NCBI RefSeq assembly: GCF_018863395.1
Contig: NZ_JAHKRR010000002.1
Span: forward strand, 186,001 to 250,000
Direction of reading: 5' to 3'
DNA: 64,000 bases
Source of the DNA: Sinomicrobium weinanense
GTDB lineage: Bacteria > Bacteroidota > Bacteroidia > Flavobacteriales > Flavobacteriaceae
The notes beneath the pieces were generated by a model. It searched no databases, was not told the origin of the DNA, and saw nothing but the letters and a program-made list of their open reading frames with translations. Shown one piece after another: positions 6,832 to 62,075 of this stretch (its first letter is position 1; every line of letters starts with the position of its first letter). Position numbers and translations under genes: made by a program.

Positions 6832-6847
6832 ATGTTGTCGAACACAT
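6832..6847. promoter_or_regulatory. operator-like palindrome ATGTnnTCGAnnACAT (M60 proximal site)
   Basis: ATGTTGTCGAACACAT is a full match to the palindrome ATGTnnTCGAnnACAT, about 47 bp upstream of the M60 start. The layout resembles LacI-family operators with a central CG. Confidence 0.5.
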
Positions 6848-6922
6848 TTTAAAACGTAACATACTTCAGTTTTCCATTGTTCCCAACCCGACTTTTTATC
6901 GCAAATGAAGATTATTTATAAA

Positions 6923-6977
6923 ATGGTATCGAACACATTACAGAATAAAGATAAAAATATTTTTAATATTTAACATA
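6923..6977 (-). promoter_or_regulatory. operator-like palindrome with candidate promoter (M60 distal site)
   Basis: ATGGTATCGAACACAT (6923-6938) differs by one base from the palindrome. On the minus strand it lies 7 bases downstream of TATCTTTA (plus-strand 6946-6953), a near match to TAnnTTTG, with TATG 20 bp further upstream in place of TTTG. The operator would overlap the transcription start, as at 42046. Confidence 0.4.
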
Positions 6978-7080
6978 TTTTTAGCTTTTAATTTTAGTTA
7001 ACCCCTCATAAAAGTTAAAAAAATCGTAAATTCACCACAAAAGCGCCTCTATCGTCATGACTGCTACAACTTTTCTTTCA
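6948..7080. other. AT-rich leader region upstream of the M60 gene
   Basis: The 6786-7311 gap holds, in order, the two operator palindromes, this very AT-rich stretch, a terminator (7091-7136) and a GATTGA-family repeat (7158-7296). No ORF worth calling was seen. Confidence 0.5.
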
Positions 7081-7090
7081 AATCATATAA

Positions 7091-7136
7091 AAAGCCGCTA
7101 CTGCACTCGCATACAGCAACGGCTTTGACCAACTAA
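7091..7136 (-). terminator. terminator of the module 1 susC-susD transcript
   Basis: Stem AAAGCCG / CGGCTTT (7091-7097, 7130-7136). Read on the minus strand the stem runs into a T-rich tail. It lies downstream of the SusD stop and upstream of the M60 gene. Confidence 0.6.
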
Positions 7137-7157
7137 CTAACTCAAACAAAGGTTAAA

Positions 7158-7296
7158 AGATTGATAGGAGATTGATAGGAGATTGATGAAGATTGATGGA
7201 AGATTGAATCCCGATCGCTATCGGGAGATCGATTTGAAGCATTTCAATCTCGTTCAATCTTCCCGCGTAGCGGGACCAATCTCCTATCAATCTCCT
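7158..7296. repeat. GATTGA-family interspersed repeat, copy A
   Basis: Begins with several direct GATTGA(T/A) units and ends with the complementary CAATCT units, enclosing a CCCGATCGCTATCGGG hairpin and a CCCGCGTAGCGGG hairpin. The right half is nearly identical to the one at 21460-21580. The apparent short ORFs in both copies encode the same peptide only because the DNA is repeated. Confidence 0.8.
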
Positions 7297-7311
7297 TTAA
7301 AAAACACCGTC

Positions 7312-8910
7312 TTAATACCCAGCGTTCTGTTTCAGGTTGGGGTTCACTTTCAGGCTGCTTTCGTGAAAAGGCCACAGGTAATTCCGCGGGGCGAAGGAAC
7401 GGTTTTCGATCTTCAGGGATACTTTGCTTCCGTTTACCATTCTCGTATGTCCCAGGGCAGGTTTATTGAGCATATCTTCCGCGATCTTCCACCTTATGAT
7501 ATCGTCATAGCGCAATCCTTCCCCGGCAAATTCGATACGGCGTTCGTTCCTTATGAGGTCTATCCACTGCTGCTGCGAATAGGCACTGTAATCCGGCAGG
7601 GTAACATCGGCCACGGTCATATCCAGGCCTGCCCTTTCCCTGACCTGGTTAATGCAGCTTTTGGCCAGGTTATCGACATCGTTCATCATGATCTTCGCTT
7701 CGGCATAGGTGAGCAATACTTCGGCGTAACGGAGCAATCCGTAAGTAAGGTTGCCATTACGGAAAGCATCGGCCTCCGATACGAATTTCCGGAACCAGTA
7801 GCCGGAACGGCTGGCCCGCTGGTTTTCGTAAAACATCGGGTTGTTCGGATTGTAGATATCTATGGTCTCTCCGTAAAACTCATCGCCGGGCCCCATGATA
7901 CTGGCCTCATAACGAGGGTCGCGATTGAGCTTGGGGTCGAGTTCGTATTCTTCTTTGGTGTGTAACGGGCATTCGTCAATAGGGCGTCCCTGAAGGGTCC
8001 AGTAGGTGTCTACGAGGGACTTCAGGGGAACACAATAGGACTCCCCGTTCCCGGTTCTGAAATGCGGCCCGAGGTCGCGAAACGAATAGGTGGTACTACC
8101 GCTGAAACTTTCGATATCCTGGTGCTGGATAAACTCGTTGTTCGTGGTGGCCCCTTCGTATTGGAAGAGGTCCCTGTAACTGGAGTGCAGGCTATAATTC
8201 CCACTGTCCATGATTTCCCTGGCCAGCCGTGCAGCGAGTTCATAACGTTCATTATAAAGGGCATACCGCATCACCAATGCCTTAAAGGAGTATTTGTTGA
8301 ACATGTATTTATTGGTCGTATATTCATCCGGGGGAAGCCGGTCTGCTATATCTTCGGACATCTGGAACAGCTGGTTCAGTATTTCTTCTTTAGGAGTAGG
8401 TTCTACCGTTGCTTCTTCCACGGTGACCGGTTCCAGTAGAAAAGGGACATCTCCCCACCTTGCGGTCAATTCGAAATAATGCCAGACCCGGAGGCCTTCC
8501 AGTATGCTTTTATAACGGGCTCGGACAGCTTCGTCTTCCACATAGGGTACATCGATATTGGCAATATAAGTGTTTAGCCTTCCCACGTGTTTGAGGCGCA
8601 GGGTGTAGTAATATTCAAATGCCCGTGTATTGCTGTTGATCGTACCGTTGGCAATACGAAGGTGATGGTCGTCTTCCGAACGGGCATAGGCGTTATCGCT
8701 CCTTCCGTCTTTCATATACAGCAACGTTCTCCTGTTACTGTGATGGGTGAATACATCATAAAAACTACTGTAGGTCACCCGTCGCAGGTCGTCTTCATCG
8801 ATAAAGAATTCCTGGAAGGTGGTGGCCTTGGGGTCTGTCTTGTCCAGGAAGGACTCGCACCCGGTCATTCCAAGGATCATAAAAATGTAAATAATAAATA
8901 TTCTTTTCAT
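7312..8910 (-). CDS. SusD/RagB family nutrient-binding lipoprotein, module 1
   Basis: 532 residues from the ATG at 8910. The longer in-frame start at 8976 would put a charged 22-residue stretch before the signal peptide and was not used. The signal MKRIFIIYIFMILGMTGC ends in a lipobox cysteine. SusD-like features are the TPR-rich helical body, TPKEEILNQLF, LLTYAEAKIMMND, IRNERRIEFAGEGLRYDDIIRW and the NPNLKQNAGY-type C-terminus. It is the surface lid of the SusCD transporter. It follows SusC after a 136-bp gap, longer than in most SusCD pairs because a repeat fragment lies there. Confidence 0.93.
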   Translation of the reverse strand: MKRIFIIYIFMILGMTGCESFLDKTDPKATTFQEFFIDEDDLRRVTYSSFYDVFTHHSNRRTLLYMKDGRSDNAYARSEDDHHLRIANGTINSNTRAFEYYYTLRLKHVGRLNTYIANIDVPYVEDEAVRARYKSILEGLRVWHYFELTARWGDVPFLLEPVTVEEATVEPTPKEEILNQLFQMSEDIADRLPPDEYTTNKYMFNKYSFKALVMRYALYNERYELAARLAREIMDSGNYSLHSSYRDLFQYEGATTNNEFIQHQDIESFSGSTTYSFRDLGPHFRTGNGESYCVPLKSLVDTYWTLQGRPIDECPLHTKEEYELDPKLNRDPRYEASIMGPGDEFYGETIDIYNPNNPMFYENQRASRSGYWFRKFVSEADAFRNGNLTYGLLRYAEVLLTYAEAKIMMNDVDNLAKSCINQVRERAGLDMTVADVTLPDYSAYSQQQWIDLIRNERRIEFAGEGLRYDDIIRWKIAEDMLNKPALGHTRMVNGSKVSLKIENRSFAPRNYLWPFHESSLKVNPNLKQNAGY

Positions 8911-8935
8911 GTGTATATTTTTTATTTGTTTTTCA

Positions 8936-9025: not shown

Positions 9026-9046
9026 ATTTTTGTTTTGCTTAAGCGG

Positions 9047-12591: not shown

Positions 12592-13746
12592 CTATTCTTC
12601 GGGTTTTTCAATAACAATAATATTATTTCGGATACGATAACTGAAAAGCCGGCTCTCGGTAAAGGTCCTTAATACCTGTTCTATGGTTTCGTCGTCGAAA
12701 ATCGCTTTGAAACGTTCTTTATTCAGTTCGGGGTAATCGTTCTTAATGGTTACGTTGTATTTGCGTTCGAGTATTTTCAGTACATCCTTAAATGCCTTGT
12801 TATAAAAGATAACCTTGCCGTCCATCCAGGCGATATAATCTTCCACATCCACTTCCCGTAGGTCTATACGGGATGTGCCCCTGGCCAGTGCCCCCCTTTG
12901 TCCCGGTGACAGGGTTGCAGAGGTTCCGGTTTTGCCCGATCTCCCGGTACTGTGAATGGTTATGGCTCCTCCGGCCAGGACCACGGAGGTTTCGGGGTCG
13001 TCTTCATAGGCGGAAACATTGAACCTGGTCCCGGTAACCTCGATGTCCATATTTCCGGTCCGGACCAGAAACGGTCTGTCCTTATTTTCGCTTACGTCAA
13101 AAAACGCTTCTCCTTCGAGGAACACCTCCCTGGCCCTCCCGCTGAACTTCACCGGGTATCGCAATGAAGTCCCTGCATTGAGATGGGCCATGGTGCCGTC
13201 AGATAATTTTAGCTTAAAGGTCTTTCCGTATGGTACCCGGAGTATATTGAACAACAGACTGTTTTCCGGGAGCCCGGAACTGTAATAAAGCGTATCTCCC
13301 TGCCGGGTAGCTACCGCCTTGCCCTTCCCGGTAGTGATCTGTTGTGGCTCCCCGGGCGTAATGGTTCGTATACTACCGTCCTCCAGCTCTAGCGTGATCT
13401 TTTCATCGGAAATGACGAGCTGTTCTTTTGTGTTCGAAGACAAATGCGTATATAAAAAATAGCCGCATCCCAGTGCGATAACCAATACGGCTGCATATCG
13501 AAGGTAGGTCCGCCAGCAGAAATGCTTTTTTTCAGCTTTTTGCACGAGCCGGGAAGTTTGGCCATAGGCTTTTTCCCCGTCAAAGCTGTGCAAAGTGGCC
13601 CGGACGAGGTGGTGTAACTGTATTTCTTTTTTGAGGAATTGCCGGCCTCCCGGGGTTTCCAGCCACTCGCGGAGTTCTTTTTCCTCTTTCGGAGACAGTT
13701 TGTCCTGTAAAAATCTTTCTATCAGTTGATCCGGTCTGTCTTTCAT
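12592..13746 (-). CDS. FecR family anti-sigma factor, module 1
   Basis: 384 residues from the ATG at 13746; the in-frame start at 13863 was rejected because its extension is unlike the family. The cytoplasmic N-terminus (KDRPDQLIERFLQDKLSPKEEKELREWLETP) binds the sigma factor. One transmembrane helix (RYAAVLVIALGCGYFLYTHL) follows, then the periplasmic FecR domain (VPYGKTFKLKLSDGTMAHLNAGTSLRYP, EVFLEGEAFFDV, TGTRFNVSAY) and the C-terminal domain that meets the SusC STN domain. An operator-like palindrome lies 24 bp upstream. Confidence 0.94.
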   Translation of the reverse strand: MKDRPDQLIERFLQDKLSPKEEKELREWLETPGGRQFLKKEIQLHHLVRATLHSFDGEKAYGQTSRLVQKAEKKHFCWRTYLRYAAVLVIALGCGYFLYTHLSSNTKEQLVISDEKITLELEDGSIRTITPGEPQQITTGKGKAVATRQGDTLYYSSGLPENSLLFNILRVPYGKTFKLKLSDGTMAHLNAGTSLRYPVKFSGRAREVFLEGEAFFDVSENKDRPFLVRTGNMDIEVTGTRFNVSAYEDDPETSVVLAGGAITIHSTGRSGKTGTSATLSPGQRGALARGTSRIDLREVDVEDYIAWMDGKVIFYNKAFKDVLKILERKYNVTIKNDYPELNKERFKAIFDDETIEQVLRTFTESRLFSYRIRNNIIVIEKPEE

Positions 13747-13769: not shown

Positions 13770-13785
13770 TAGTACACGACAACAT
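13770..13785. promoter_or_regulatory. operator-like palindrome variant upstream of module 1 fecR
   Basis: Minus-strand ATGTTGTCGTGTACTA keeps the ATGTnnTCG half of the palindrome found at 6832, 42046 and 62060, with a degenerate second half similar to that at 22312. Confidence 0.3.
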
Positions 13786-20196: not shown

Positions 20197-21378
20197 TTAA
20201 TCTATAATGATCCTGTCTTCTTCTACGATATAATGCATCCCGTAGGTGATCCTGAGATATTCCAGGACCTTTTCTATGGGTTCGGGGCCGAAACTGGCGT
20301 TAAACTCTTCTTTTGCCAGGGCCTTATTCCGGATCTCAATGGAGATATTGTAATGCCTTTCCAGTTTTTTGAGAATATTTTCAAAGGTCATATTCCGGAA
20401 AGACAGTTCCCCGCTTATCCAGGAGGTGTAAATTCCTGTTTTGACCGGGTTGACACCGATCGTTTTCTCCTCCCGGTCAAAACTTCCTTTATGCCCGGGA
20501 GTAAGTATAGCCTTTGCGGGAAGGGAAGCCATCTCCTGTGTGCCTTCGTACAGGCCTACGGACCCGTCTACCAGGACCACATCCGTAAAGCGGTCTTCCG
20601 GGTAAACGGAGACATTGAACCTGGTGCCGAACACTTTGACATGGAGCTCGCCGGTATGCACCACAAAAGGGTGATTTTTATCCTCCGTAACATCAAAAAA
20701 GGCTTCTCCCATGAGGAATACTTCCCTTTTTTTGCCCTGTATAAATTTTACGGGATACCTGAGGGAGGTCCCGGCATTGAGGTATACAGTGGTCCCGTCA
20801 GAAAGGACCACGTCAAAACGCTTTCCGTAAGGTACTTTCAGGGTATTATAGACCAGTTTTTCTTCTTTTCCGGAAGTCTCCTTGTAGGTAAGCCGGGCCT
20901 GATCCTGTTTTCCGAGAGTCTGGCCGGAAGCATCCGTAACTTCGCCCGAACTTTCCGGTTCTATAACCCTTATCTCACCGTTATCCAGCACCAGGGTAAT
21001 GGAGGGTTCGGAAGGCAGTCCCGGCGGATCGTCTTTTTGAGAAAAAGGATCCTGAAAAAAGAACACTCCCGCCGATATCAAAATTGCGATCGTTGCAGCA
21101 GCCATAAGAAACCGGTTTTTACGGCACTTTTTTACCGGGGGAAGGGCCTCCTCTTTTTTTTGGCCTTTTTCCAGAATACGGGCGTAAATACGATCGGCCA
21201 TACGTTCTTCCATCTGCGGCACTTCCCTGAGCTGTCCCAGTATGTCTTCTACGGATGGCATTTCTTCAGTAGGTGTCCGCTCTTTAAAGTAGGCGATGAC
21301 CGCTTCGATCTCTTCCGGTGTGCAGCGCCCGAGCACAAACTTTTCAATAAGGTCTTGTATGTTCTTATGGTCTTTCAT
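20197..21378 (-). CDS. FecR family anti-sigma factor, module 2
   Basis: 393 residues from the ATG at 21378; an upstream in-frame start at 21540 runs through repeat-flanking DNA and was rejected. N-terminal sigma-binding region (KDHKNIQDLIEKFVLGRCTPEEIEAVIAYF), a transmembrane helix (RFLMAAATIAILISAGVFFF), FecR domain (VPYGKRFDVVLSDGTTVYLNAGTSLRYP, EVFLMGEAFFDV, FGTRFNVSVY) and a C-terminal domain ending in ITYGMHYIVEEDRIIID. Its sigma lies upstream across a 261-bp gap holding a GATTGA-family repeat. Confidence 0.94.
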   Translation of the reverse strand: MKDHKNIQDLIEKFVLGRCTPEEIEAVIAYFKERTPTEEMPSVEDILGQLREVPQMEERMADRIYARILEKGQKKEEALPPVKKCRKNRFLMAAATIAILISAGVFFFQDPFSQKDDPPGLPSEPSITLVLDNGEIRVIEPESSGEVTDASGQTLGKQDQARLTYKETSGKEEKLVYNTLKVPYGKRFDVVLSDGTTVYLNAGTSLRYPVKFIQGKKREVFLMGEAFFDVTEDKNHPFVVHTGELHVKVFGTRFNVSVYPEDRFTDVVLVDGSVGLYEGTQEMASLPAKAILTPGHKGSFDREEKTIGVNPVKTGIYTSWISGELSFRNMTFENILKKLERHYNISIEIRNKALAKEEFNASFGPEPIEKVLEYLRITYGMHYIVEEDRIIID

Positions 21379-21384
21379 TAAAAA

Positions 21385-21401
21385 ATGTTGTTCGTGCACA
21401 T
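21385..21401. promoter_or_regulatory. operator-like palindrome variant just upstream of module 2 fecR
   Basis: ATGTTGTTCGTGCACAT has both ATGT and ACAT arms but one extra base in the centre. It ends 7 bases before the fecR start codon, where a bound protein could block transcription entering fecR. Confidence 0.3.
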
Positions 21402-21459: not shown

Positions 21460-21580
21460 AGATTGAATGAGATTGAAGAAGATTGATGAAAGATTGAATC
21501 CGACAGTTCGGGAGATTGATCTTAAACATTTCAATCTCATTCAATCTTCCCGCGTAGCGGGTTCAATCTCCTATCAATCT
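21460..21580. repeat. GATTGA-family interspersed repeat, copy B
   Basis: GATTGA units at the left, CAATCT units at the right and the CCCGCGTAGCGGG hairpin, closely matching copy A at 7158-7296. It is inserted between the sigma and fecR genes of module 2. Confidence 0.8.
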
Positions 21581-21639
21581 TTTAACCTGGCCTACATCAG
21601 CACGGAAAAAGACACGTCGATGGTCCGGCAGCAAAAAGA

Positions 21640-22236
21640 TCACAGCCACCCGAAGGCTATGAAAGTTATGATAAGGGTGAGATCGCTATGGGCAAACAAA
21701 AAATTGCGAATGGTTTCCAGGGCGGCGCTCATCTGATTTTTTACAGTGCTCACGGAGATACCGAGCTCTTTGCTGATCTCTTCATAACTCATTCCCCGGT
21801 TACGGGACAGTTCGAAGATCTGCCTGCGCCTTGGCGAAAGTATATCGATAGCCTGTTGTTTGATACGGTCGTAATAGGCGGCATCGATATTGTTCTCTGC
21901 CGGGTTATACGATTCCTGGCTTTTGTAGAATACTTCTTCCCGGAGCCTGGCATCGTTGGCTGCCTTGTGCAGAAAATTAATGGCCAGGTTTCGCGTTATG
22001 GCAAATATATACGATCTGAAGGAAAGCTCAGGGTCGAGTTTTTCCCGGTTCAGCCATATTTTCAAAAATACGTCCTGTACAATCTCCTCGGCATATTCGT
22101 CGTGTTTAAGAATGCTTTTCCCATAAGCATAGATATCGTGCCTGTACAGGTCGAACAGCTTCCGGAACGCCGCTTCGCGATGCTCCATAAGCGCTCTTAC
22201 CAGTAGCTTCTCTTTATCTCTTTTTCTGTTGTACAC
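21640..22236 (-). CDS. ECF RNA polymerase sigma-70 factor (FecI-like), module 2
   Basis: 198 residues. Region 2 (EAAFRKLFDLYRHDIYAYGKSIL, YAEEIVQDVFLKIWLNREKL, FAITRNLAINFLHK) and region 4 (LSPRRRQIFELSRNRGMSYEEISKELGISVSTVKNQMSAALETIRNFL) are clear, with the hydrophobic C-terminal tail seen in this class. Expected to be held by the FecR encoded downstream and to transcribe its susCD genes. A TTTG-N20-ATATTTTG promoter and an operator-like palindrome lie upstream. Confidence 0.93.
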   Translation of the reverse strand: MYNRKRDKEKLLVRALMEHREAAFRKLFDLYRHDIYAYGKSILKHDEYAEEIVQDVFLKIWLNREKLDPELSFRSYIFAITRNLAINFLHKAANDARLREEVFYKSQESYNPAENNIDAAYYDRIKQQAIDILSPRRRQIFELSRNRGMSYEEISKELGISVSTVKNQMSAALETIRNFLFAHSDLTLIITFIAFGWL

Positions 22237-22311: not shown

Positions 22312-22370
22312 AAGTGTACGAACACATATTTATAGCAACAAAATATGCAAATCCTGTTCATACTACCAAA
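22312..22370 (-). promoter_or_regulatory. promoter and operator-like palindrome of the module 2 sigma gene
   Basis: On the minus strand TTTG (plus 22367-22370), 20-bp spacer, ATATTTTG (22339-22346), then 11 bases, then ATGTGTTCGTACACTT (22312-22327), a variant of the ATGTnnTCGAnnACAT palindrome. The operator would sit just past the transcription start. Confidence 0.45.
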
Positions 22371-24880: not shown

Positions 24881-24897
24881 GGTCCACCTATCGAACG

Positions 24898-25573: not shown

Positions 25574-27019
25574 TCAGGTCTTGGCTTTCTGGTAATGTCC
25601 GTCCTCTATTTTCGCATCCGTGGTTTCCACGCCAATGACAAAAGGCCTGTCCGTGGCAGAAGCGGGCTTATAATGTATAAAATATTCATTGCGGTGAATT
25701 TCCTCCAGTTCGAGTGAAGCACCGGGATCGTTGAGCAGGTAGGCTTTATTGAGCTTTGTTTTACCCGGGACTTTCACCCTCAGGGCACCAGAAACGGGGA
25801 TATTGAACACCGTCATGTATTTTTTACCGGTTTCCCTGTTTACGGTATAATAGCCCCAGTCCTGCTTTTCCCAGTCCAGATAACCGCATCCGTAAACAGC
25901 TTCGTTATTCTCTTTCATCCACTCCCCTATTTCGGCGGCCAGGCGGGTCTCTTCGGAGCGGATATTTCCCTGCCCGTCAGGGCCGAAATTGAGTACAAAA
26001 TTACCATCCAGCGAAGCGGCTTTTACCAGCATTTCTATCAGTTCGTTAGTGGTTTTTACATGGCCTTTCCAGTCGGAATGATACCCCCACTGATTTTCGG
26101 GGACGGTCATGACACAGTCCCAGTCATTGCCGTTGGTGTCTTCGATGGTGTTGGGCATTTTGCGTTCCCAGCCCTGTTCGTAATCACCGATCAGGTCGCC
26201 GTTAGTATCGAAATGGCGGTTACCGTTGTCATCGGGACGGAAACGGCTGCCGATGATAAGGCCGGGGATCATCTCCCTCAGTTCCTTTCCCAGCGCATCG
26301 GCAAATTCAGCCTGTTCTGTCCATGCCTTATCCCAGGACCCGTCAAACCACAATCCTTTGGTGGATGGGTACAGGGTGAGCAATTCCACAAGCTGATTGC
26401 GGGTAAACTTTTTAAACTCCTCATATTCCTTTCTGTCCTGTTCGCTTTTAAGGGTACTCCTGTATCCCGGATGGTTCCAGTCTATGATGGAGAAATACAG
26501 GTAGACATCAATGCCCTCGGCATCGTAGGCTTCTACCAACTGGCCTATAATATCCTTTTTATAAGGGCTGTTCGCTACGGTATAATCGGTGTATTTGCTC
26601 GGCCAGAGGCAAAAACCGTCGTGGTGTTTTGTGGTGATGATCACGTATTTTGCCCCCATGTCCCCGGCCTGTTTGGCCCAGGCCTTGGCGTTGAATTTTT
26701 TGGGGTTGAACTGTTTGTAAAGGTTGTCATAGGCATCTTTGGGCATGCCCTTCCAGGAGCGTATCCATTCGGCTGCCCCGGGATAGTACTGGCCTTCCCA
26801 GTGTCCGCCGGGAATAGCATAGACCCCCCAGTGAATAAACTGCCCCAGGCCGTAGTTGCGCCAGGCCTGCATGGGTTTGTCCGTTCGCTTGCCGAGACGG
26901 TGCGCCCCGTGTTCGAGCTTTACCGAAATTCGCTTTTCGGGCTTTTGCGACTGGGCATTTAAACTCACGGCAACCGATAAAAATGCTGCCAGTAAACAGG
27001 TAAATGATGTTCTTTTCAT
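25574..27019 (-). CDS. GH29 alpha-L-fucosidase
   Basis: 481 residues with a signal peptide (TSFTCLLAAFLSVAVSLNAQ) and the GH29 catalytic barrel: GLGQFIHWGVYAIPGGHW, AKYVIITTKHHDGFCLWPS, DVYLYFSIIDWNH and the nucleophile in KGLWFDGSWD (D226). GH29 enzymes remove terminal alpha-L-fucose from host or algal glycans by a retaining mechanism. Likely periplasmic. It is last of three co-oriented exo-glycosidase genes, 7 bp after the GH20 gene, so these two are almost certainly co-transcribed. Linkage preference cannot be told from the sequence. Confidence 0.93.
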   Translation of the reverse strand: MKRTSFTCLLAAFLSVAVSLNAQSQKPEKRISVKLEHGAHRLGKRTDKPMQAWRNYGLGQFIHWGVYAIPGGHWEGQYYPGAAEWIRSWKGMPKDAYDNLYKQFNPKKFNAKAWAKQAGDMGAKYVIITTKHHDGFCLWPSKYTDYTVANSPYKKDIIGQLVEAYDAEGIDVYLYFSIIDWNHPGYRSTLKSEQDRKEYEEFKKFTRNQLVELLTLYPSTKGLWFDGSWDKAWTEQAEFADALGKELREMIPGLIIGSRFRPDDNGNRHFDTNGDLIGDYEQGWERKMPNTIEDTNGNDWDCVMTVPENQWGYHSDWKGHVKTTNELIEMLVKAASLDGNFVLNFGPDGQGNIRSEETRLAAEIGEWMKENNEAVYGCGYLDWEKQDWGYYTVNRETGKKYMTVFNIPVSGALRVKVPGKTKLNKAYLLNDPGASLELEEIHRNEYFIHYKPASATDRPFVIGVETTDAKIEDGHYQKAKT

Positions 27020-27026: not shown

Positions 27027-28616
27027 TTATTTCTTTTTTGTGTATACCGGTTCCGGCGTGGTTTCCGGTTTTAACGGATTGTAATAGTATATTTTTTCGC
27101 TTCGATAAAGTTCCAGGTGGTCTTCCAGCCTCTTCATAAAAAAGGGAAGATCATCGCGATCTGTGGTCCAGGCCGATTCTGACAGGGCGGCAATACGCGG
27201 GAAGAGAAGGTAATCGAGCCGTTTGATGCTGGTGACGGTCTCTGTCCAGAGATTGGCCTGTACGCCCAGTATTTTCCCGGTAGCTTTACCTTGTGTCCAG
27301 TCTCCGGCAGAAAAGTGATAGACGTCTTTTATGGGACTGAACTTTCCTCCCCATTTACGGCCCGAATTGTGGGTACTGTCCTGGACAAAATCGAAATAAT
27401 AGGGCAGCCTGGGGCAAATAACCGTACGGTACCCACGCTCCAATGCCTTATGCAATTGTTCCGGCTTGTCGTGCCGCCACCAGAACAGTATGGTTTTGTC
27501 TGCAGGCAGGTCGGTATCTGCCAGTTCGTCCCATGCCAGCAGGTTGGCCCCCATGGCATAAACAGAATCGGCCATGCGTTTCATAAAATGGTATTCTACT
27601 TCCCTTACGTCTTTTAGCCCGTGCCGGCTCATTAATTCCTTTATTCCCCGGCTCTGTATCCATTTGTCATTGCCGAAGCTCACTTCGTCCCCGCCGAGAT
27701 GAAGCATGCGCGAAGGGAAAAGGCCATTGACTTCTTTTAGTATCCCTGTGAGATAGGCGTAGGTATCTTCATTCTCGGGATCGAAGGTAAATTCCGGATG
27801 CTGTTCACTGCCTCCGCCGCTATATTGCGGATAGGCCCTGTTTGCGGCAGTGGCATGCCCGGGCATATCGATCTCGGGGATAACGGTGATGTTCCTCTTC
27901 CCTGCGTATTCCACAATTTCTGCAATGTCCTCCTGTGTAAAATATTGTGCGGGTTTATGGGGATCGTTTTGATCTCCCACTCCACCTACCGAAGCCAGCC
28001 TGGGATATTTTTTGATCTCGATACGCCAGCCGGGTTCGTCCGTGAGGTGTAAATGCAGGCGGTTCAGCTTGTAAAAGGCCATCCAGTCCAGCAGGGATAC
28101 TATTTTTTCCTTCGGAATAAAATAACGGGACACATCCAGCATAAGCCCCCGCCAGGAGTATTGCGGGGCATCCCTGATCTGCCAGGCGGGAATTTTTACC
28201 TGCCCGCCACTTTTCCCGGTATTGGCGATAAGCTGCAATACACTCACGGTTCCGTTGAACACTCCCGGCACACCGGAAGCCCTGATCGTTATTCCACCGG
28301 AGTCGATATGAAGTTCGTAGGCTTCTTTGTCTCCCTTTTCTTCCGTAAGTTCCAGCCGGATGGCCGGGGTATCGTCGGATCCTTTTGCTTCGGAAAGGGA
28401 AATACCTGCAAACTTTATTACCTGTGAACGGAAATAATCTGCAGTGCTCCGAAGAACGTCGGAAGCAACTACAAGCGGCGTCTTTTCGCTGAGAAGAAAG
28501 GTATCGTTTCCTTTTACGGCTTCCTGCGGCAATGGAATCACCGGGCAGTTTTGCCAGGCTGCCACCGGTAAAGACACCGCAAGGCAAAGGATTGTTGTTA
28601 TACAAAATCTTTTCAT
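27027..28616 (-). CDS. GH20 beta-N-acetylhexosaminidase
   Basis: 529 residues. Signal peptide (FCITTILCLAVSLPVAA), an N-terminal GH20b-like domain, then the catalytic barrel starting at SWRGLMLDVSRYFIPKE. The HLHLTDEPGWRIEI motif and the catalytic D-E pair in MLHLGGDEVSFG (D310-E311) are intact. It releases terminal GlcNAc or GalNAc by substrate-assisted catalysis. It fits with the GH2 and GH29 neighbours for stepwise removal of Gal, HexNAc and Fuc from complex glycans. A TTCGAC-family repeat separates it from the GH2 gene upstream. Confidence 0.94.
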   Translation of the reverse strand: MKRFCITTILCLAVSLPVAAWQNCPVIPLPQEAVKGNDTFLLSEKTPLVVASDVLRSTADYFRSQVIKFAGISLSEAKGSDDTPAIRLELTEEKGDKEAYELHIDSGGITIRASGVPGVFNGTVSVLQLIANTGKSGGQVKIPAWQIRDAPQYSWRGLMLDVSRYFIPKEKIVSLLDWMAFYKLNRLHLHLTDEPGWRIEIKKYPRLASVGGVGDQNDPHKPAQYFTQEDIAEIVEYAGKRNITVIPEIDMPGHATAANRAYPQYSGGGSEQHPEFTFDPENEDTYAYLTGILKEVNGLFPSRMLHLGGDEVSFGNDKWIQSRGIKELMSRHGLKDVREVEYHFMKRMADSVYAMGANLLAWDELADTDLPADKTILFWWRHDKPEQLHKALERGYRTVICPRLPYYFDFVQDSTHNSGRKWGGKFSPIKDVYHFSAGDWTQGKATGKILGVQANLWTETVTSIKRLDYLLFPRIAALSESAWTTDRDDLPFFMKRLEDHLELYRSEKIYYYNPLKPETTPEPVYTKKK

Positions 28617-28814: not shown

Positions 28815-30962
28815 TTACTTTAGTATCCACTCCATTTCATCTGCAAGCGTTTCTCCCCTGCTTTTACCGGTTGCTTTGACCTTGTTCACTCCCTTTTGGA
28901 GCTGCACTTCAAACACCCGATGTTTGTCGTTTACTCCCGGTTGGCCCGGCACCTCTTTTCCGTTTACAGTGAGGCTTATATCGGCCAGGTTGGTAAAGAC
29001 CTGCACAGTGGTGTCCGGCTTTGTGCGTTTGTTATCCCTCCTGTTGGCGAGATAGAGCATGGGTTCGGGGTTCCAGTTGGCCTTGTACCAGTAAAAGGCA
29101 TCTTTTTTCCGTTTGCGGTCGAAGGTGATGAGTCCTTTCAGGTTCCGGGCATTCACCCCTCCCCGGTTCCACATGGGTACGGAAAATTCGAACATGTTCC
29201 ACAGGTAGGAAGCGACAATATAGGGATGTTTTTCGATTATGGCCCACTGTTGGATATGGGTTTCGGTCTGATAATTTTCAGGGAAGAACTTTCCACTCAC
29301 GGGGTTGCGGTTTTCGGGCAGTTCTTCGGCGCTCTGGTCTATGTTGCCGTCGGCCCCGTATTCGGCAAGGATCACTTTATGTCCGGGATACTCCTCTTCC
29401 AATCCGCTTGCCCAGCCTTCCAGGTCGCCTATTTTTCCTTCGTACCAGCCGTAATAGCGGTTTATGCCCTGTACATCACCGCCGAGATTGGCAGGCCTGT
29501 CCATTTCGCCATAGCCACTTACGGCTCCCGTTAACCTGTCCGGGTCGTTGGTTTTGGCAATGTCGTTCAGTTCACGGGTCAGTACGGCTACGTATTCGTC
29601 CTGGTTTTTGGAATAGACCTCATTGTGCATGCCCCAGATATAAATGGAAGGGTGATTGAAATTCTGACGTACCAGTTCCGCCATCTGTTGTTTGGCATTG
29701 GCTGCTTCTTCTCCTGAAAAATTGTTTACAAAAGGAATCTCAGCCCAGATGAGAAAGCCCATCTTATCGGCCAGCGAATAAATATGATCGGATTGCTGGT
29801 AATGAGCCAGGCGAATGGTGGTGGCCCCTATTTCCCTGATAAACTGCATATCTTCCTCTTCCTGCTTTCCAGACAGTGCATTGCCATATTTCCAACGGTC
29901 CTGGTGACGGGTAACACCATACATCGGATATTTTTTTCCGTTCAGGTACATCCCTTCTCCGGCTTTGAGCTCAAAACGACGTATACCGAGTGGCTGGGTC
30001 ACCGCATCTGTTTCCTTTCCGTTTTCGCTGACAGAGGTGGTCAGGGTATACAGGTAAGGGTCTTCCACACCCTGCCACAGGTGGGGAGACTTTAACCTGA
30101 GTTCCTGTGCTGCCACAGTGGTCCCCTGGGGGCTTACGGTTATTTCCTTTTCTTCACGTGCTACCTGTTTTCCATCGGCATTTTTTATCACGGTCCGCAG
30201 GGTGACTTTCCGGGCTTGCTTTTCCTTGTTTTCCAGTTTGGCCCTTACGGTGATGTCCGCTTTTTTGCGGGAAACGTTTTTTTGAGATATGTAAATGCCG
30301 GGAGAAGCATAGTCGGTTACACTGATATTCAGCTTGTTGGTAAGAATAAGGCTTACGGGCCTGTATATGCCCCCGTAGATCGGGAACAGAAAATGATTGA
30401 TGGGCAGTACATCTTTTCTCGCCTCGTTATTGACCTTGACGAGAATGGTATTTTCCTTTCCGTAATCTACCGAATGGGTGATCTCAAAGGCAAAAGCGGA
30501 ATAACTTCCCTTGTGTTCCCCGATAAAACGGCCGTTCACATAGAGCGATGCCACCGAGCCCACACCTTCGAACCGGAGAAAAAGCCTTTTGTCCTTCCAT
30601 TCTTTTTTGACATGCAGTTCTTTTTGATAAAAGGCGTCCCCCGTGTAAAAATCACGGCCCAGTTGCATGTCTTCTTTATTATAGGAATGCGGAACGTCAA
30701 CCTGTTCCCAGTCCCGGCTCACAAAACCGATGTTCCGGCCATAATCCTTTTCTCCCTTCTTGAACTTCCAGTCCTTATTGAGGTCAACGACTTCCCTGCC
30801 CTGGGCATGGGAGGACATGACCCAAGTAAAATTCACCGCCAGGAAAAGGGCAACTATCCCCGTAAATTTTCCCGGTCTCAATTTTCCTTTGCGGTTTGTT
30901 CCTGTTTTATTGTTCCCTGTTTTGTACTGCATTTTAGTTGTAATGATTGATAATAAACTCAT
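28815..30962 (-). CDS. GH2 beta-galactosidase-like glycoside hydrolase
   Basis: 715 residues from 30962; a start at 30932 (MQYKTGNN) is equally possible. After a signal-like segment (FTGIVALFLAVNFTWVMSSHA) come the GH2 sugar-binding domain (WEQVDVPHSYNKEDMQ, FEGVGSVASLYVNGRFIG), the immunoglobulin-like domain, and the catalytic barrel with acid/base in YIWGMHNEVY (E448) and nucleophile in VILAEYGADGN (E534). It lacks the long C-terminal domains of LacZ. Galactosidase is the most likely activity, but GH2 also holds glucuronidases and mannosidases. First gene of the exo-glycosidase group. Confidence 0.88.
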   Translation of the reverse strand: MSLLSIITTKMQYKTGNNKTGTNRKGKLRPGKFTGIVALFLAVNFTWVMSSHAQGREVVDLNKDWKFKKGEKDYGRNIGFVSRDWEQVDVPHSYNKEDMQLGRDFYTGDAFYQKELHVKKEWKDKRLFLRFEGVGSVASLYVNGRFIGEHKGSYSAFAFEITHSVDYGKENTILVKVNNEARKDVLPINHFLFPIYGGIYRPVSLILTNKLNISVTDYASPGIYISQKNVSRKKADITVRAKLENKEKQARKVTLRTVIKNADGKQVAREEKEITVSPQGTTVAAQELRLKSPHLWQGVEDPYLYTLTTSVSENGKETDAVTQPLGIRRFELKAGEGMYLNGKKYPMYGVTRHQDRWKYGNALSGKQEEEDMQFIREIGATTIRLAHYQQSDHIYSLADKMGFLIWAEIPFVNNFSGEEAANAKQQMAELVRQNFNHPSIYIWGMHNEVYSKNQDEYVAVLTRELNDIAKTNDPDRLTGAVSGYGEMDRPANLGGDVQGINRYYGWYEGKIGDLEGWASGLEEEYPGHKVILAEYGADGNIDQSAEELPENRNPVSGKFFPENYQTETHIQQWAIIEKHPYIVASYLWNMFEFSVPMWNRGGVNARNLKGLITFDRKRKKDAFYWYKANWNPEPMLYLANRRDNKRTKPDTTVQVFTNLADISLTVNGKEVPGQPGVNDKHRVFEVQLQKGVNKVKATGKSRGETLADEMEWILK

Positions 30963-31241: not shown

Positions 31242-31257
31242 ATGGGTTCGAGCACAT
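31242..31257. promoter_or_regulatory. operator-like palindrome variant upstream of the GH2 operon
   Basis: ATGGGTTCGAGCACAT keeps the central TCGA and the ACAT arm of ATGTnnTCGAnnACAT with one mismatch. On the minus strand it is 3 bases downstream of TATTTTTA, a near match to TAnnTTTG. The GH2 start is about 280 bp away, across the inverted repeat. Confidence 0.35.
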
Positions 31258-41318: not shown

Positions 41319-41921
41319 TTACATTTCCTTCCGGAAAAACACATAAAGAGCAGTGACCAGGCATGGGAGAAAATGCTTCCTCAACATTTTTACCGCCCTA
41401 TAAATCAATGTCCTGGAGGTTTCTACGGAAACATTCATGATCTCGGCTATTTCCTCATAGGGCTTTCCTTCGTTGAATTTCAGGGCCAGTGCCTGCCGCT
41501 GCCTGTCGGTAAGCTGGTCGAAAGAGGTCTTTAAACGCAATACTTTTTCGGTCTGGATCTCAGAAAAGATAAATTCTTCTTCGACAGACTGTACAGGGTC
41601 ACTGGCAGGCACCATTCTACCGGAGGTTTCATCATTGAACAGGGGTTGTTCGCGGGTTTTGCGTTTCCGGTTTATATTTCGCTGCAGGGACCGCAACAGG
41701 TAAGACCGGACATTGACACCCGCAGAAAGTTTTTTCCGGTACTTGTACAGGTCCAGGAAAAGGTCGTGGATACAATCCATCACACACGCCCTGTCACCGC
41801 AGATACGCATGCCGTGGGCAAACAATATATCGGCATAGTGGTCATAGATATCTCCAAGTGCAACCGAACTGCCTTTTCGCAGTTCCTGCCACAGGTGTTC
41901 TATGTTCTCTTGCGGTTCCAA
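41319..41921 (-). CDS. ECF RNA polymerase sigma-70 factor (FecI-like), module 3
   Basis: 200 residues. Region 2 (ALGDIYDHYADILFAHGMRIC, VMDCIHDLFLDLYKYRKKL, YLLRSLQRNINRKRK) and region 4 (LTDRQRQALALKFNEGKPYEEIAEIMNVSVETSRTLIYRAVKMLRK) are present. Upstream are TTTG-N18-TAACTTTA and a perfect operator-like palindrome. It diverges from the module 4 sigma, 384 bp away, and works with the unusually short FecR of module 3. Confidence 0.93.
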   Translation of the reverse strand: MEPQENIEHLWQELRKGSSVALGDIYDHYADILFAHGMRICGDRACVMDCIHDLFLDLYKYRKKLSAGVNVRSYLLRSLQRNINRKRKTREQPLFNDETSGRMVPASDPVQSVEEEFIFSEIQTEKVLRLKTSFDQLTDRQRQALALKFNEGKPYEEIAEIMNVSVETSRTLIYRAVKMLRKHFLPCLVTALYVFFRKEM

Positions 41922-42045: not shown

Positions 42046-42100
42046 ATGTTATCGAACACATTAGCACAGGTAAAGTTAACACATTTTTTAGAAAAACAAA
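42046..42100 (-). promoter_or_regulatory. promoter and perfect operator-like palindrome of the module 3 sigma gene
   Basis: On the minus strand TTTG (plus 42097-42100), 18-bp spacer, TAACTTTA (42071-42078), 9 bases, then ATGTGTTCGATAACAT (42046-42061), which fits ATGTnnTCGAnnACAT exactly and is identical to the 62060 site. The operator overlaps the expected transcription start about 125 bp from the ATG. Between this and the module 4 sigma at 42306 nothing else is recognised. Confidence 0.55.
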
Positions 42101-42305
42101 TTAATATCCGCCAAAACGAAGCGTTATCTGTAAAGAACAGGGCATCCTGTTACATTTTTTCTTTTTGTTGTTGATAAAAAGTATATTTTATTCAAAAGCA
42201 ATTTGTATATTATCCCGACAAAACCGGAAGGCGAAACTTAAACAGTTTCTTAAACATTTATTAATAACGGGCTCCCGTAAATTTTATACTATTGCCTTTG
42301 CTACT

Positions 42306-42863
42306 ATGGAAGTTACAGACAACAGACTTTTTGACCTTATCCGGGAAAACAACGAACTCGCTTTTCATGAGGTCTACAACAGGTACTGGCAGAAACTGCT
42401 GGTAGTATCTTCTTCCATTTTGCAGGACAGGGAAGCCGCGCAAGACGTGGTTCAGGACGTTTTTATACGGATCTGGATTAAACGCCGCGAGCTGGAGATT
42501 GAAAACGTCAATGCCTATCTGTACCAGGCCGTAAAGCTCAGGTGTTTTGAATACCTCCGCAGGAACAAGATCAACCAGAAGCTGATGGACAGGATCAACC
42601 ACATCCTCCATGTGAACGATGTTGAGGAAAGCCTGAACCTGAAAGAAACCCAGGGCATCCTTCAAAAAAGCATACAGTCCATTCCGGCCAAAAGCCTTGT
42701 TATCTTCCGGATGAGCAGGGACGATGCCATGTCGCACCGGGAGATCGCGGAAAAAATGCAGATCTCCAAAAAAGCCGTGGAATACCATATCACGGTCTCC
42801 CTTAAACACCTTCGCAAACTCCTTACGGAATCTACCATCCTTTTTTTGTTTTATTTTTTTTAA
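42306..42863 (+). CDS. ECF RNA polymerase sigma-70 factor (FecI-like), module 4
   Basis: 185 residues from the ATG at 42306; an upstream in-frame start at 42165 lies in AT-rich DNA and gives an atypical basic extension. Region 2 (NELAFHEVYNRYWQKLLVVSSSIL, AAQDVVQDVFIRIWIKRREL, AVKLRCFEYLRRNK) and region 4 (IPAKSLVIFRMSRDDAMSHREIAEKMQISKKAVEYHITVSLKHLRKLL), with a very hydrophobic C-terminus. It heads the plus-strand module 4, 169 bp before fecR. Confidence 0.92.
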   Translation: MEVTDNRLFDLIRENNELAFHEVYNRYWQKLLVVSSSILQDREAAQDVVQDVFIRIWIKRRELEIENVNAYLYQAVKLRCFEYLRRNKINQKLMDRINHILHVNDVEESLNLKETQGILQKSIQSIPAKSLVIFRMSRDDAMSHREIAEKMQISKKAVEYHITVSLKHLRKLLTESTILFLFYFF

Positions 42864-59700: not shown

Positions 59701-60205
59701 TGAAATTTCCGTCAAAATCAGTTGCCGTACCTGCAGAAGTCCCTATTTCTACCACATTGGCGCCGGGAACGGGGATCCCTTCCGGATCGGTCACCACTCC
59801 GGTAATGGTCCGTTCCTGGAACTCATTCCCTGTGAGGCGCACATGGTTCAACCTGATAACATTGATCACATTGTTCACCTTCCTGAATTCCAGATGAGCT
59901 GTGTTTCCGATATAATCCAGGATTTCCTCAAGTCCCACCCTGTTAAAGTTCTTATTCAGCCTTATTTTTTTGTCCAGGTCGTTCCTGTCGTACGAAAACC
60001 TCAGATCCGTATGCTTTTCAATAAGACCAAAGGCTTCTTCAATCCCCCTGTCCTTTAATTGTAAGGTGATCCCACTTTTTCTTCCCCCTGTATCGCTCCC
60101 CTGCGTTCCCGGTCCTTTGGCATAGGAAGAGAAAACAAGGAAAAATACGGCACACTTAAGAAAATGCACTGCCCGAAGGCGGTAATTCTGCGAACGTATT
60201 CTCAT
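56756..60205 (-). CDS. SusC/RagA family TonB-dependent transporter with STN domain, module 5
   Basis: 1149 residues. Signal region (AVHFLKCAVFFLVFSSYAKG), STN domain (ITLQLKDRGIEEAFGLIEKHTDLRF...), carboxypeptidase-regulatory-like domain (TGVVTDPEGIPVPGANVVEI), LEGVVMVGYGTQKK, plug (FNIRGNTSINASSPLVLVDG, TVLKDAASASIYGARAASG) and barrel ending in NRGVSFGIQVGL. It shares GLQGLIPNLNVNLQNG-type plug wording with module 3 SusC. Only 36 bp separate it from fecR, so unlike modules 1-4 there is no stem-loop in between. Confidence 0.95.
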   Translation of the reverse strand: MRIRSQNYRLRAVHFLKCAVFFLVFSSYAKGPGTQGSDTGGRKSGITLQLKDRGIEEAFGLIEKHTDLRFSYDRNDLDKKIRLNKNFNRVGLEEILDYIGNTAHLEFRKVNNVINVIRLNHVRLTGNEFQERTITGVVTDPEGIPVPGANVVEIGTSAGTATDFDGNFTLKLTADHPKIRVSFIGYKTIEVAIGEAAHYNIVLREDAQALEGVVMVGYGTQKKADLTGAVSTISSEKLESRPLVNLGQGLQGLIPNLNVNLQNGRPGEGATFNIRGNTSINASSPLVLVDGVVMDPNLINPSDVESVTVLKDAASASIYGARAASGVILITTKRGQKNTPVQINYSSSYTVTRPTRMPDYLNSVDYIKMHREADRNGQISGGSTASTPFTERDLELATAYFNDPVNNSPVYVDPANPSRYRYVGNTDWIDVMYPGTAPMQEHKLSVSGGSEKTSYIASLGYMNQKGLLKVADDNFERYNAGLKVSTEATDWLDLNFSMSLNYTDNNRPNTASHGGTSSGWISGDLRPIMPVYHPDGNYSGQGSFTNMVAMAKLNGRWETTENDLWLTGGFVLKPFKNFRWTTDFTWNNYNYNDMRHYKEYPEYGVDGILLGTFPWTTPSSVREENSNDYYTALNSFMEYENTFGKHYVKGMIGYNQELKQVKSFSATARNLIDQEKPAINLNNDDRPGVGGRQSEWAISGAFFRANYVYDERYLLQVSGRYDGSSRFPKDNRFVFFPSVSAGWRISNETFFEPLKEKVNELKIRYSYGMLGNQDIEDSFGNYPYIPVMGTSRGGHIFDNQREVFVNPPGLVSSGFTWEKVSTHNFGLDVSAFKNRMHINFDWFIRDTRDMIIGAFPLPAILGTPPPVRNAADMRTKGWELSVAWSGGIGEDFSYNVGLALSDYMSTITKYDLNPESILSDRYEGQKRGEIWGYTTEGFFQSDDAAAQADQSRIWGGTWMAGDIQYKDLNGDGIIDFGDNTLDNPGDRSVIGNRTPRYQFGLNFSSNYKNFDFGFLFQGVGKRDVVVGDNTFWGFLSEWHVPMQHHKDYWTPENPDAYYPRLRFGGGGNFEAQTKYIQNAAYGRLKSITLGYSLPGEVLDKIGLYKLRLYVTGQNLFEITQLHKAFDPEIFEPREYPLNRGVSFGIQVGL

Positions 60206-60241
60206 AATTCATTTGGTTTTGGTTAATTTTCGGTTTTATTT

Positions 60242-61315
60242 TTAAAAGATGATCACGGTTGTTCCTTCCAGCCTGAAATGAAATTTTTTTACCATACCGA
60301 TACTTTTTAAAACATTTTCAAGGGATTCATTGTGAAAACTCCCGGAATAACTCCATCCCGCCATTGTTTCCGGGGATTTTTCCACCTGTATCTCCACGCC
60401 ATACCAGCTTTCCAGTTTTTCGAATATTTCCCTGCTCTCTTCGTGTTTAAAGAATAAAACCCCGATGGTCCAGGCCAGTACTTCATTACGATCGAAATTC
60501 CGTTTTTCGGCACTAAGGCCTTCTTCGGTATCTATGATCAATTGTTCTCCGGGATCCAATATTTCATTGTAATTGAATTCCTTCTGAGCCACAGACACTT
60601 TTCCCGTAACCAGCGAAACCTGTACTTCTTTTCCCTTTTGATCAATATTAAAAGAAGTACCCAGTGCCTGGGTCACCGTGCCGTTTGCATCGACCAGGAA
60701 AGGGCGCGAAGTATCTTTGGCGACCTCAAAAAATGCCTCCCCTGTTAGATGCACCATTCTCAGGGTATTATTGAATTTTTCCTCAAAAGTGATCTCGCTG
60801 TTACTATTGAGCATCACCTTGGTTCCATCACTGAGAAAAACGGTAAGTTTTTGTCCCTTATCGGTTTTTCTTACTACAAAATCTGAAGGGGCTTCGAGCT
60901 TGTCTTTTTCTGCAAAAAAATCCGTGAGAAGAGAGCCTACCACTATAAAAGTGGCAATCATCGACGCCACCAGCCAATACTGTTTTTTGGATTTGTTCCG
61001 AGCCGCCCCCGCTGTCCTTTTGCTCAGGGAAAACACCTTGCCCTTCCTTTCTTTTGCAGAAAATTCTTCGGTTTTAAAACGGATGCGCTTTTTTAAATCT
61101 TCTATCCGGCTTTCGTCATAAGACCGCTGCTCAAACTTCAAACCCGAGATCATATTTTTTGCTTCTTCGGAAAATGGGACCAGGTGGGGGTATTTATCCA
61201 ACATTCCGGCCCAGTCCGTGGTTGAAGTATTCTTTTGTACCCAGGAGATAAAGGATTCATCGGTAAGGAAGTCTTCCGTTTTATAATCTTTATATGGTTT
61301 ACCGGTTTTTTTCAA
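60242..61315 (-). CDS. FecR family anti-sigma factor with TTG start, module 5
   Basis: 357 residues. In this frame no ATG or GTG lies between the upstream stop and the conserved N-terminal region (DYKTEDFLTDESFISWVQ), so translation most likely starts at the TTG at 61315. The next in-frame ATG would delete that region. Transmembrane helix (YWLVASMIATFIVVGSLLTDFF), FecR domain (VFLSDGTKVMLNSNSEITFEEKF, VHLTGEAFFEV, LGTSFNIDQ) and C-terminal domain (SWYGVEIQVEKSPE) are intact. It sits between sigma and susC. Confidence 0.92.
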   Translation of the reverse strand: MKKTGKPYKDYKTEDFLTDESFISWVQKNTSTTDWAGMLDKYPHLVPFSEEAKNMISGLKFEQRSYDESRIEDLKKRIRFKTEEFSAKERKGKVFSLSKRTAGAARNKSKKQYWLVASMIATFIVVGSLLTDFFAEKDKLEAPSDFVVRKTDKGQKLTVFLSDGTKVMLNSNSEITFEEKFNNTLRMVHLTGEAFFEVAKDTSRPFLVDANGTVTQALGTSFNIDQKGKEVQVSLVTGKVSVAQKEFNYNEILDPGEQLIIDTEEGLSAEKRNFDRNEVLAWTIGVLFFKHEESREIFEKLESWYGVEIQVEKSPETMAGWSYSGSFHNESLENVLKSIGMVKKFHFRLEGTTVIIF

Positions 61316-61413
61316 AATATTTACAGGTTGTCCTTTACCTGATAAATCCCGGAAAGTGGTATTTTACTCCCGTATTTTTGAAAAAATTTTAAAAATGTAC
61401 CTGAAATCGGTTG

Positions 61414-61998
61414 TCAGGAGCTCGTTGAAGAAATATTTTTTCTAAGAGATAACATGGCCTTCGACAAGGCATTGTAAACCGCCTTTTTATCCAGTTGCAT
61501 AACCTCACTGATCTCGTCAAAACTCAACTGGTTGTAGTATTTCAGGTAAATGATCTCTTTTTGCCGGGGACTGAGCTGGGCAAAACCTCCTTTGAGCCGG
61601 TTCAGGTCCCTGAGCCTGGTCTCTTCTTCTACCATTGCTGTTTCCAGGGAAACTTCAAAACCGGGCAGGGAAGAAGGCAATATCCAGGATCTCCAGAAAT
61701 TCTTCTTTTGTTCTTTTTTAAGGGCTTTAAAGAGTTCTTTGCGAAAAGCAGCCATAAGATAAAAACGGATATTATCTGTATCCTTTAATGTATCCCGTCT
61801 GACCCATATTCTGCAAAACAGTTCCTGAGCGCAGTCTTCTAACAGGTCGAGATCGCCTGTAAAACTTCTGCCATAATTTAACAGATAGGCCATATGCTCA
61901 TTAAAAACCCGATCAAAAGCCTCCTTGCTTCCCCGTTTCATATCCGACCATATTCTGCTGTCTTTTTCTTTGCGGTATGAGAGTCTTAAAATAGACAT
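61414..61998 (-). CDS. ECF RNA polymerase sigma-70 factor (FecI-like), module 5
   Basis: 194 residues. Region 2 (SKEAFDRVFNEHMAYLLNYGRSF, LEDCAQELFCRIWVRRDTL, YLMAAFRKELFKALKKE) and region 4 (LSPRQKEIIYLKYYNQLSFDEISEVMQLDKKAVYNALSKAMLSLRK) are present. It lies 98 bp upstream of its fecR. An operator-like palindrome identical to the one before module 3 sigma lies 62 bp upstream. Confidence 0.93.
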   Translation of the reverse strand: MSILRLSYRKEKDSRIWSDMKRGSKEAFDRVFNEHMAYLLNYGRSFTGDLDLLEDCAQELFCRIWVRRDTLKDTDNIRFYLMAAFRKELFKALKKEQKKNFWRSWILPSSLPGFEVSLETAMVEEETRLRDLNRLKGGFAQLSPRQKEIIYLKYYNQLSFDEISEVMQLDKKAVYNALSKAMLSLRKNISSTSS

Positions 61999-62059
61999 GG
62001 ATCAGTAATTTAGGTCGATGAAGAATTAGCTATTCTTTGGGAATCTTGTATTAAATTTT

Positions 62060-62075
62060 ATGTTATCGAACACAT
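62060..62075. promoter_or_regulatory. perfect operator-like palindrome of the module 5 sigma gene
   Basis: ATGTTATCGAACACAT, an exact match to ATGTnnTCGAnnACAT and identical (including the TTTT flank) to the site at 42046-42061. No convincing TAnnTTTG box is seen at the usual distance here. Confidence 0.5.

Follow-up and report, generated by a model that had tools for sequence, protein, structure and literature searches.

A 16-bp operator with the consensus ATGTGYTCGARCACAT recurs in a 64,000-nucleotide stretch of the Sinomicrobium weinanense genome (C12:186001-250000 of 5.36 Mb; hereafter the window), and, judging from sequence comparisons, it is probably the binding site of a LacI-family regulator encoded on another contig, at C23:175999-177045 (probability about 0.83). 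The motif is enriched in the window and in the genome, it lies beside orthologous LacI genes in other genera, LacI and motif occur together across the family, and several of the sites are conserved in congeners. An earlier analysis of the window (the original prediction) had proposed a shared palindromic operator of the LacI type and a regulator not seen in the window.

A pattern search of the window with ATGTNNTCGANNACAT located exact copies at 6832-6847, 42046-42061 and 62060-62075 and one-mismatch forms at 6923-6938 and 31242-31257, exactly where they had been predicted. When up to two mismatches were allowed, 11 matches were obtained versus 2.14 expected, a number reached by none of 100 shuffles. 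As claimed, the sites at 42046 and 62060, both next to sigma genes, are the same 16-mer. The description of the sites as palindromes held only in part: the motif is certainly repeated, but its self-complementarity is partial, with one half being mostly ATGTGTTCG and the other looser. The consensus is an even palindrome with a central CG, which is the form given for LacI operators (16-22 bp, even, central CG; PMC4052901). A palindromic matrix made from 23 distinct sites outside Sinomicrobium, picked by de novo 9-mers, found 7 window sites of at least 12 bits, compared to a mean of 0.31 and a maximum of 2 in 100 dinucleotide shuffles. The motif is not equally frequent in genes, since six of these seven sites are intergenic, in the 11% of the window outside the open reading frame (ORF) set, which covers the other 89%; the five exact or one-mismatch sites all lie outside this set, in agreement with the intergenic placement proposed for them. 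That the operator itself is real is near certain.

The three weaker variants that had been listed did not fare alike. The site at 22312 scored 15.9 bits with the outside-genus matrix and is supported. The variant at 21385-21401 reached 7.1 bits as a 16-mer (21386-21401), inside the shuffle range, but it is probably a degenerate real site because sites stand at the equal place, the leader of FecR 20197, in three congeners (24.5 bits in G150, 17.9 bits in G151 and a degenerate 9.5 bits in G149). The variant at 13770-13785, with 3.0 bits also inside the shuffle range and with no counterpart in G149, the sole congener checked, was dropped as an operator. An additional site of 16.7 bits at 13428-13443, which G149 has too, falls within a FecR gene, where the DNA encodes a conserved SSNT peptide, and was set aside as coding.

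In the whole genome, ATGTNNTCGANNACAT with at most one mismatch occurred 33 times versus 11 for the reversed control, and an improved pattern, WTGTGTTCGNNNACAW, gave 14 exact matches on both strands versus 0 for its control. The pattern and control counts in six Sinomicrobium genomes were 26/5, 22/8, 23/8, 28/4, 22/2 and 4/6; a LacI ortholog was present in the first five, those with a motif excess, and was not found in the sixth. The S. weinanense genome has 14 LacI-type genes. The one on C23 carries a site 54 bp upstream, in the region between it and a divergent GHMP kinase gene that is followed by a nucleotidyltransferase gene, while no such site was found within 300 bp upstream of the other 13. 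Its product combines a LacI helix-turn-helix (HTH) domain (PF00356, E 4.8e-15; HTH motif SKGTVDRV) with a Peripla_BP_4 sugar-sensing domain (PF13407, E 2.2e-30), the pairing expected of the LacI family. The predicted regulator from outside the window can thus be equated, as a candidate, with a LacI gene that bears the site in its own promoter. Autoregulation is typical of the family (72% in PMC4052901), and the C23 gene and its orthologs match this trait by the position of the site alone.

Orthologs of this LacI were present in 19 of 149 family genomes, its own included, at 46-100% identity; the remaining genomes reached no more than 38%. The nearest named records are three from Sinomicrobium (81%, 72% and 73% identity), which are not independent of the genus genomes G151, G094 and G150. 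One ortholog from each of 17 other genera was taken, and in the 250-bp regions preceding these genes the most frequent 9-mer, TCGAACACA, appeared in 10 of 17, compared with a maximum of 6 in 200 mononucleotide shuffles, and a full site was found in 11; the exact 16-mer shared by 42046 and 62060 precedes one of these orthologs (L109) and that of 6832 another (L110). Of 42 named records with SKGTVDRV, a set heavy in Flavobacterium that includes the three from Sinomicrobium and some genomes already counted, 31 had an upstream site matching at least 13 of the 16 consensus positions. Among the 148 other family genomes, an exact site was present in 14 of 18 LacI-positive and in 22 of 130 LacI-negative ones (Fisher p 4e-7, kinship ignored), and total sites versus reversed control amounted to 35/23 with LacI and to 31/99 without it.

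Absence of the motif before homologous sigma genes of related genomes had been named as the result that would count against a common operator, and the outcome of this comparison was mixed. The site before sigma gene 41319 was kept in all four congeners in which the gene was found, and that before GH2 gene 28815 (31242) in all three. Before sigma gene 21640 one congener of three is clear (14.7 bits in G149) and two are weak (9.6-9.8 bits at a similar distance in G150 and G151). For FecR 39666, G150 and G151 show a site, and the window, G149 and G094 show none. For sigma gene 61414 there was no close ortholog in the genus, the best match outside its own genome having 32% identity.

Targets were collected by a matrix scan of stretches chosen by pattern matches, which contained 24 sites of at least 15.7 bits, 20 upstream of genes (three of them in ORFs judged overlong or spurious) and four inside genes. 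According to Pfam, the putative targets outside the window comprise GH109, a GH31 with dockerin, GH123, a GH2 of the beta-galactosidase type, GH29, SusC in two instances, an extracytoplasmic function (ECF) sigma factor, a sulfatase and a protein with a weak GH88/GH76-like match. The single GH123_cat gene of the genome (PF13320) is the one bearing the C29 site, and a second protein, of GH123_N type, is found beside a weaker site (13.6 bits). At C1:1005220 two sites of 17.1 and 11.4 bits are 22 bp apart, and the next gene is a sulfatase by its sequence start. Such spacing was mostly 21-24 bp (58 pairs, heavily Flavobacterium and not deduplicated) or 33 bp (2 pairs) in the examined loci, which corresponds to some two or three turns of the helix; the window pair is 91 bp apart. 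The SusC-like gene downstream of operator C25:411931 (L087:5117-8256) is split in two overlapping ORFs, and its 82% relative in G151 (L314) adjoins genes of FecR-like and sigma-like type, with a 24.5-bit operator accompanying the sigma-like one. The GH31 enzyme (L077:6127-9993) also has F5/8 C and fn3 domains besides its dockerin type I domain. To our knowledge, a dockerin domain is unusual in an aerobic flavobacterium.

Neighbours of the regulator bear on the sugar that would be sensed. We surveyed 47 loci of LacI relatives over 10 kb (42 with SKGTVDRV, some shortened by contig ends, with Flavobacterium dominating) and found a sugar 1-kinase homolog in 37, of the APH type in 8 and of the GHMP type in 29, parallel nucleotidyltransferase counts (8 and 29), and a NagB homolog in 30. 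The APH-type protein resembles N-acetylhexosamine 1-kinases of known structure (4ocu, E 8.6e-63), and the GHMP kinase of S. weinanense is nearest to galactokinases (1s4e, E 7.3e-23), with the N-acetylgalactosamine (GalNAc) kinase 2a2c among its weaker matches (E 1e-15). GalNAc-releasing families (GH109 and GH123) among the targets, along with sugar kinases by the regulator (the N-acetylhexosamine-1-kinase-like APH type in 8 loci, the GHMP type in 29), form the combination expected for GalNAc utilization. Together, the targets and the N-acetylhexosamine-1-kinase-like and NagB-like neighbours point to GalNAc-rich, mucin-like glycans. We lean towards a GalNAc species as effector, and GalNAc or a derivative appears the most likely inducer because of the kinase and NagB neighbours and of a parallel in Bacteroides thetaiotaomicron, where the APH protein BT4240 is a GalNAc kinase whose locus holds GH2, GH109, an M60-like peptidase and a sigma/anti-sigma pair (available text of PMC11992087). 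Galactose is the main alternative inducer, since the GHMP kinase of S. weinanense is closest to galactokinases. In the LacI loci L161-L205, L215 and L223, some genera have an APH kinase and others a GHMP kinase, so that unrelated kinases appear to have been exchanged within one regulatory context.

The genome contains 27 FecR modules, which were inspected with flanks of 1.5 kb, a few of them ending soon after, or within, the sigma gene; for the modules with short flanks no site was nearby among the strong places listed by the pattern searches. About five modules have a site at their sigma gene, through four sites, the pair of sigma genes at 42046 being counted. One regulator co-controlling several sigma/FecR/SusCD modules, as a layer above the FecR relay, had been proposed. 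A shared operator does co-mark several modules, the M60 gene and the glycoside hydrolase (GH) operon, but a layer over FecR modules generally is not supported; a general layer would place a site at most modules, and the motif as a mark of sigma/FecR modules at large was rejected. The regulator would instead exert a control by glycan class that reaches some sigma/FecR modules. The unit of control would be the substrate class, because the other targets are GalNAc/mucin-type enzymes, SusC and the LacI gene with its sugar kinase. Through LacI control of sigma genes, outer-membrane relays could be gated by a sugar signal from the cytoplasm. We offer, tentatively, a circuit with two keys in which the cytoplasmic LacI, sensing released GalNAc or its phosphate, would gate several sigma/FecR relays; just as tentatively, the firing of each glycan-specific relay might require two things at once, the ligand of its own SusCD and the shared product sugar.

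According to the mechanism that we propose, the C23 gene would encode a LacI-family repressor that binds DNA of the ATGTTATCGAACACAT type, the motif being its operator. In the absence of inducer, a LacI dimer would occupy ATGTGYTCGARCACAT, at some promoters thereby covering the -7 box and the transcription start, and would block its own gene, the kinase, GalNAc/mucin-type glycosidases, sulfatases, the M60 peptidase, some SusC genes and about five sigma/FecR modules. GalNAc or a derivative in the cell would take the repressor off the DNA, so that the dispersed loci are released together, and the sigma/FecR relays would still require their own glycan signal through SusCD.

Repression is the likely mode of control. 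TAnnTTTG is the -7 box of the Bacteroidota phylum. In 46 single-direction upstream regions, 8 of 16 exact boxes start within a span of 15 positions around the first base of the operator (-12 to +2), as do 13 of 49 boxes in all 104 oriented regions; an operator so placed would overlap the -7 box or the transcription start, which fits repression. In FecR leaders, about 5 bp separate the sites from the start codon, a placement that also suits blocking. A plain TA dinucleotide count in 100 oriented regions reached 25% at no offset, and the narrower TAnnTTTG count was the informative one. A LacI-family activator or dual regulator is an unlikely alternative that draws on 23 of the 49 boxes, which are situated 30-100 bp beyond the operator start and belong for the most part to divergent regions. 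Most upstream regions have no exact box, and none was found near the site at the sigma promoters; both facts count against the proposed mechanism, and the second also favours an activator, so that control at the sigma promoters could be of either sign.

Less probable still, the sites could be a real operator of another regulator, either another LacI or a protein of GntR or Crp type, with the C23 LacI gene merely one of its targets, since a LacI gene can be the target of another regulator and the genome has 14 of them. Against this stand the restriction of the upstream site to the C23 gene among the 14 LacI genes and the covariation of LacI and motif presence in genus and family. Moreover, from genus to genus the motif goes with the orthologs; several LacI relatives at greater distance have another palindrome, TCGTGTGCGCACACGA-like, and the LacI gene of L089 has TGTGTGCCTACACA twice. 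If the asymmetric TGTGTTCG half belonged to an ECF sigma promoter, this would explain why supported window sites begin with ATGTGTTCG or ATGTGCTCG in the sense of their minus-strand target gene; we consider this very improbable, as the orientation is reversed at the GH109, C28 sigma and sulfatase promoters, fully symmetric forms such as ATGTGTTCGAACACAT lie beside LacI genes, and most FecR/sigma loci have no motif. Chance or a compositional artefact, suggested by the shortness and degeneracy of the motif, by the background scores of 13770 and 21386 (16-mer) and by the four high scorers in genes, is hardly credible in view of the window and genome enrichment, the WTGTGTTCGNNNACAW counts, the outside-genus matrix, the genus counts, the congener conservation and the family co-occurrence.

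Several observations count against the C23 LacI and its proposed regulon. No upstream site was found in 6 of the 17 orthologs from other genera, three of these six (L241-L243) having one between the LacI gene and the gene that follows it, nor in 11 of the 42 named SKGTVDRV records. The LacI-less Sinomicrobium genome is one single case and smaller (3.0 Mb), and the raw excess in LacI-positive family genomes is modest (35 versus 23), the control being somewhat raised there (p 0.018). Neither G150 nor G151 has the M60 sites (6832 and 6923) in front of its M60 ortholog (0 of 2), a point on which the expectation of conservation failed. Four high scorers are in coding DNA (C23:10766 with 23.3 bits, C12:199428, C12:583034 and C1:987118), and C25:396755, one of the 20 upstream sites, has no clear target. 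In the flanks examined, 22 of the 27 FecR modules lack a convincing upstream site. Finally, GH109 alone is no proof of GalNAc, since a LacI regulon for hexuronate in Algoriphagus includes genes of this family too (available text of PMC5507952).

LacI-family regulons as such are known, and a LacI regulon of this kind would be new; none was found for Flavobacteriaceae or Sinomicrobium among open-access papers, as far as their accessible text goes. The following comparisons refer to the available portions of the papers. LacI regulons reconstructed by comparative genomics (PMC4052901) share the even 16-bp palindrome with a central CG, autoregulation, tandem sites and carbohydrate targets; in the portion at hand only the Bacteroides group is named for the phylum, with the term flavobacteri occurring 0 times in the main text, whereas the targets here include ECF sigma/FecR modules. 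The mucin polysaccharide utilization locus (PUL) BT4240-50 of B. thetaiotaomicron (PMC11992087) offers the same set of APH GalNAc kinase, GH2, GH109, M60-like peptidase and ECF sigma/anti-sigma pair, but it is one locus and its accessible text has the term LacI 0 times, whereas in S. weinanense the genes are scattered and a common operator connects them. Other LacI-family regulators of sugar catabolism in Bacteroidetes are KdgR, UxaR, UxmR and UxuR of B. thetaiotaomicron (PMC3878776) and UxuR2 of Algoriphagus (PMC5507952), whose loci encode a GH109-family gene as the targets here do; these regulators are predicted for uronic acids, and the available text mentions no sigma/FecR targets. The carrageenan regulon of Zobellia galactanivorans (PMC5698469) likewise unites dispersed glycan genes beyond a PUL, although its tested regulator is of the AraC type. 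BT4338, the global carbohydrate regulator of B. thetaiotaomicron, is needed as a further regulator atop a sigma/anti-sigma pair for a PUL (PMC11501099); unlike the LacI here it belongs to another family (Crp in PMC3878776), and according to PMC11501099 it is unknown how BT4338 acts at that PUL.

With the C23 LacI, the unseen regulator becomes a specific gene with a testable regulon, and the operator matrix permits target prediction in genomes that have an ortholog. Glycan loci that are scattered and possess sigma/anti-sigma sensors of their own may be joined in one substrate programme in Flavobacteriaceae, and the operators at sigma genes make hierarchical control of PUL sensors testable. The window sites and their putative targets are given in Table 1.

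Table 1. Operator sites and putative target genes in the window (scores from the outside-genus matrix).
Feature	Position	Strand	Remarks
Operator O1, gene-sense ATGTGTTCGACAACAT	6832..6847	-	47 bp upstream of M60 gene; 21.7 bits
Second operator before M60 gene	6923..6938	-	91 bp from O1; 16.5 bits
M60-like peptidase with F5/8 C domain, putative target	5010..6785	-	PF13402 E 1.2e-52
Probable degenerate 17-bp operator in FecR leader	21385..21401	-	6 bp before start codon ~21378; 7.1 bits as 16-mer
FecR-type anti-sigma gene, putative target	20197..21378	-	PF04773, PF16344; start picked by eye
Operator	22312..22327	-	76 bp upstream of ECF sigma gene; 15.9 bits
ECF sigma factor, putative target	21640..22236	-	PF08281, PF04542
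Operator before GH2-GH20-GH29 operon	31242..31257	-	19.8 bits
GH2 glycosidase, operon gene 1, putative target	28815..30962	-	PF02836
GH20 hexosaminidase, GH2-GH20-GH29 operon	27027..28616	-	PF00728 E 6.7e-103
GH29 alpha-L-fucosidase, GH2-GH20-GH29 operon	25574..27019	-	PF01120 E 1.8e-75
Operator between two divergent ECF sigma genes	42046..42061		22.9 bits
ECF sigma factor, putative target	41319..41921	-	PF08281
ECF sigma factor, putative target	42165..42863	+	PF08281, PF04542
Operator, same 16-mer as 42046	62060..62075	-	62 bp upstream of ECF sigma gene; 22.9 bits
ECF sigma factor, putative target	61414..61998	-	PF08281, PF04542

Some further features were observed. The two copies of TGTGTGCCTACACA (L089:7246-7261 and 7347-7362) lie upstream of another LacI gene of the genome, whose product has SIGTVDRV, and are likely a separate operator; perfect palindromes, CCGAAAACGTTTTCGG (L097) and GAACAAACGTTTGTTC (L093), also stand upstream of their LacI genes and are possible operators of two further LacI regulators. 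At 24239-25392 of the window, an ORF of 164 amino acids that by eye resembles a small sigma-type protein precedes one of 213 amino acids without a Pfam match. Two intergenic inverted-repeat elements made of GATTGAAT-like units are located at 7158-7301 and 21460-21581; the copies have a 35-mer in common, ending TTCCCGCGTAGCGGG, with one base variable, and the 20-base core of this element occurred, among 334 loci, only in those covering its two places in the window.

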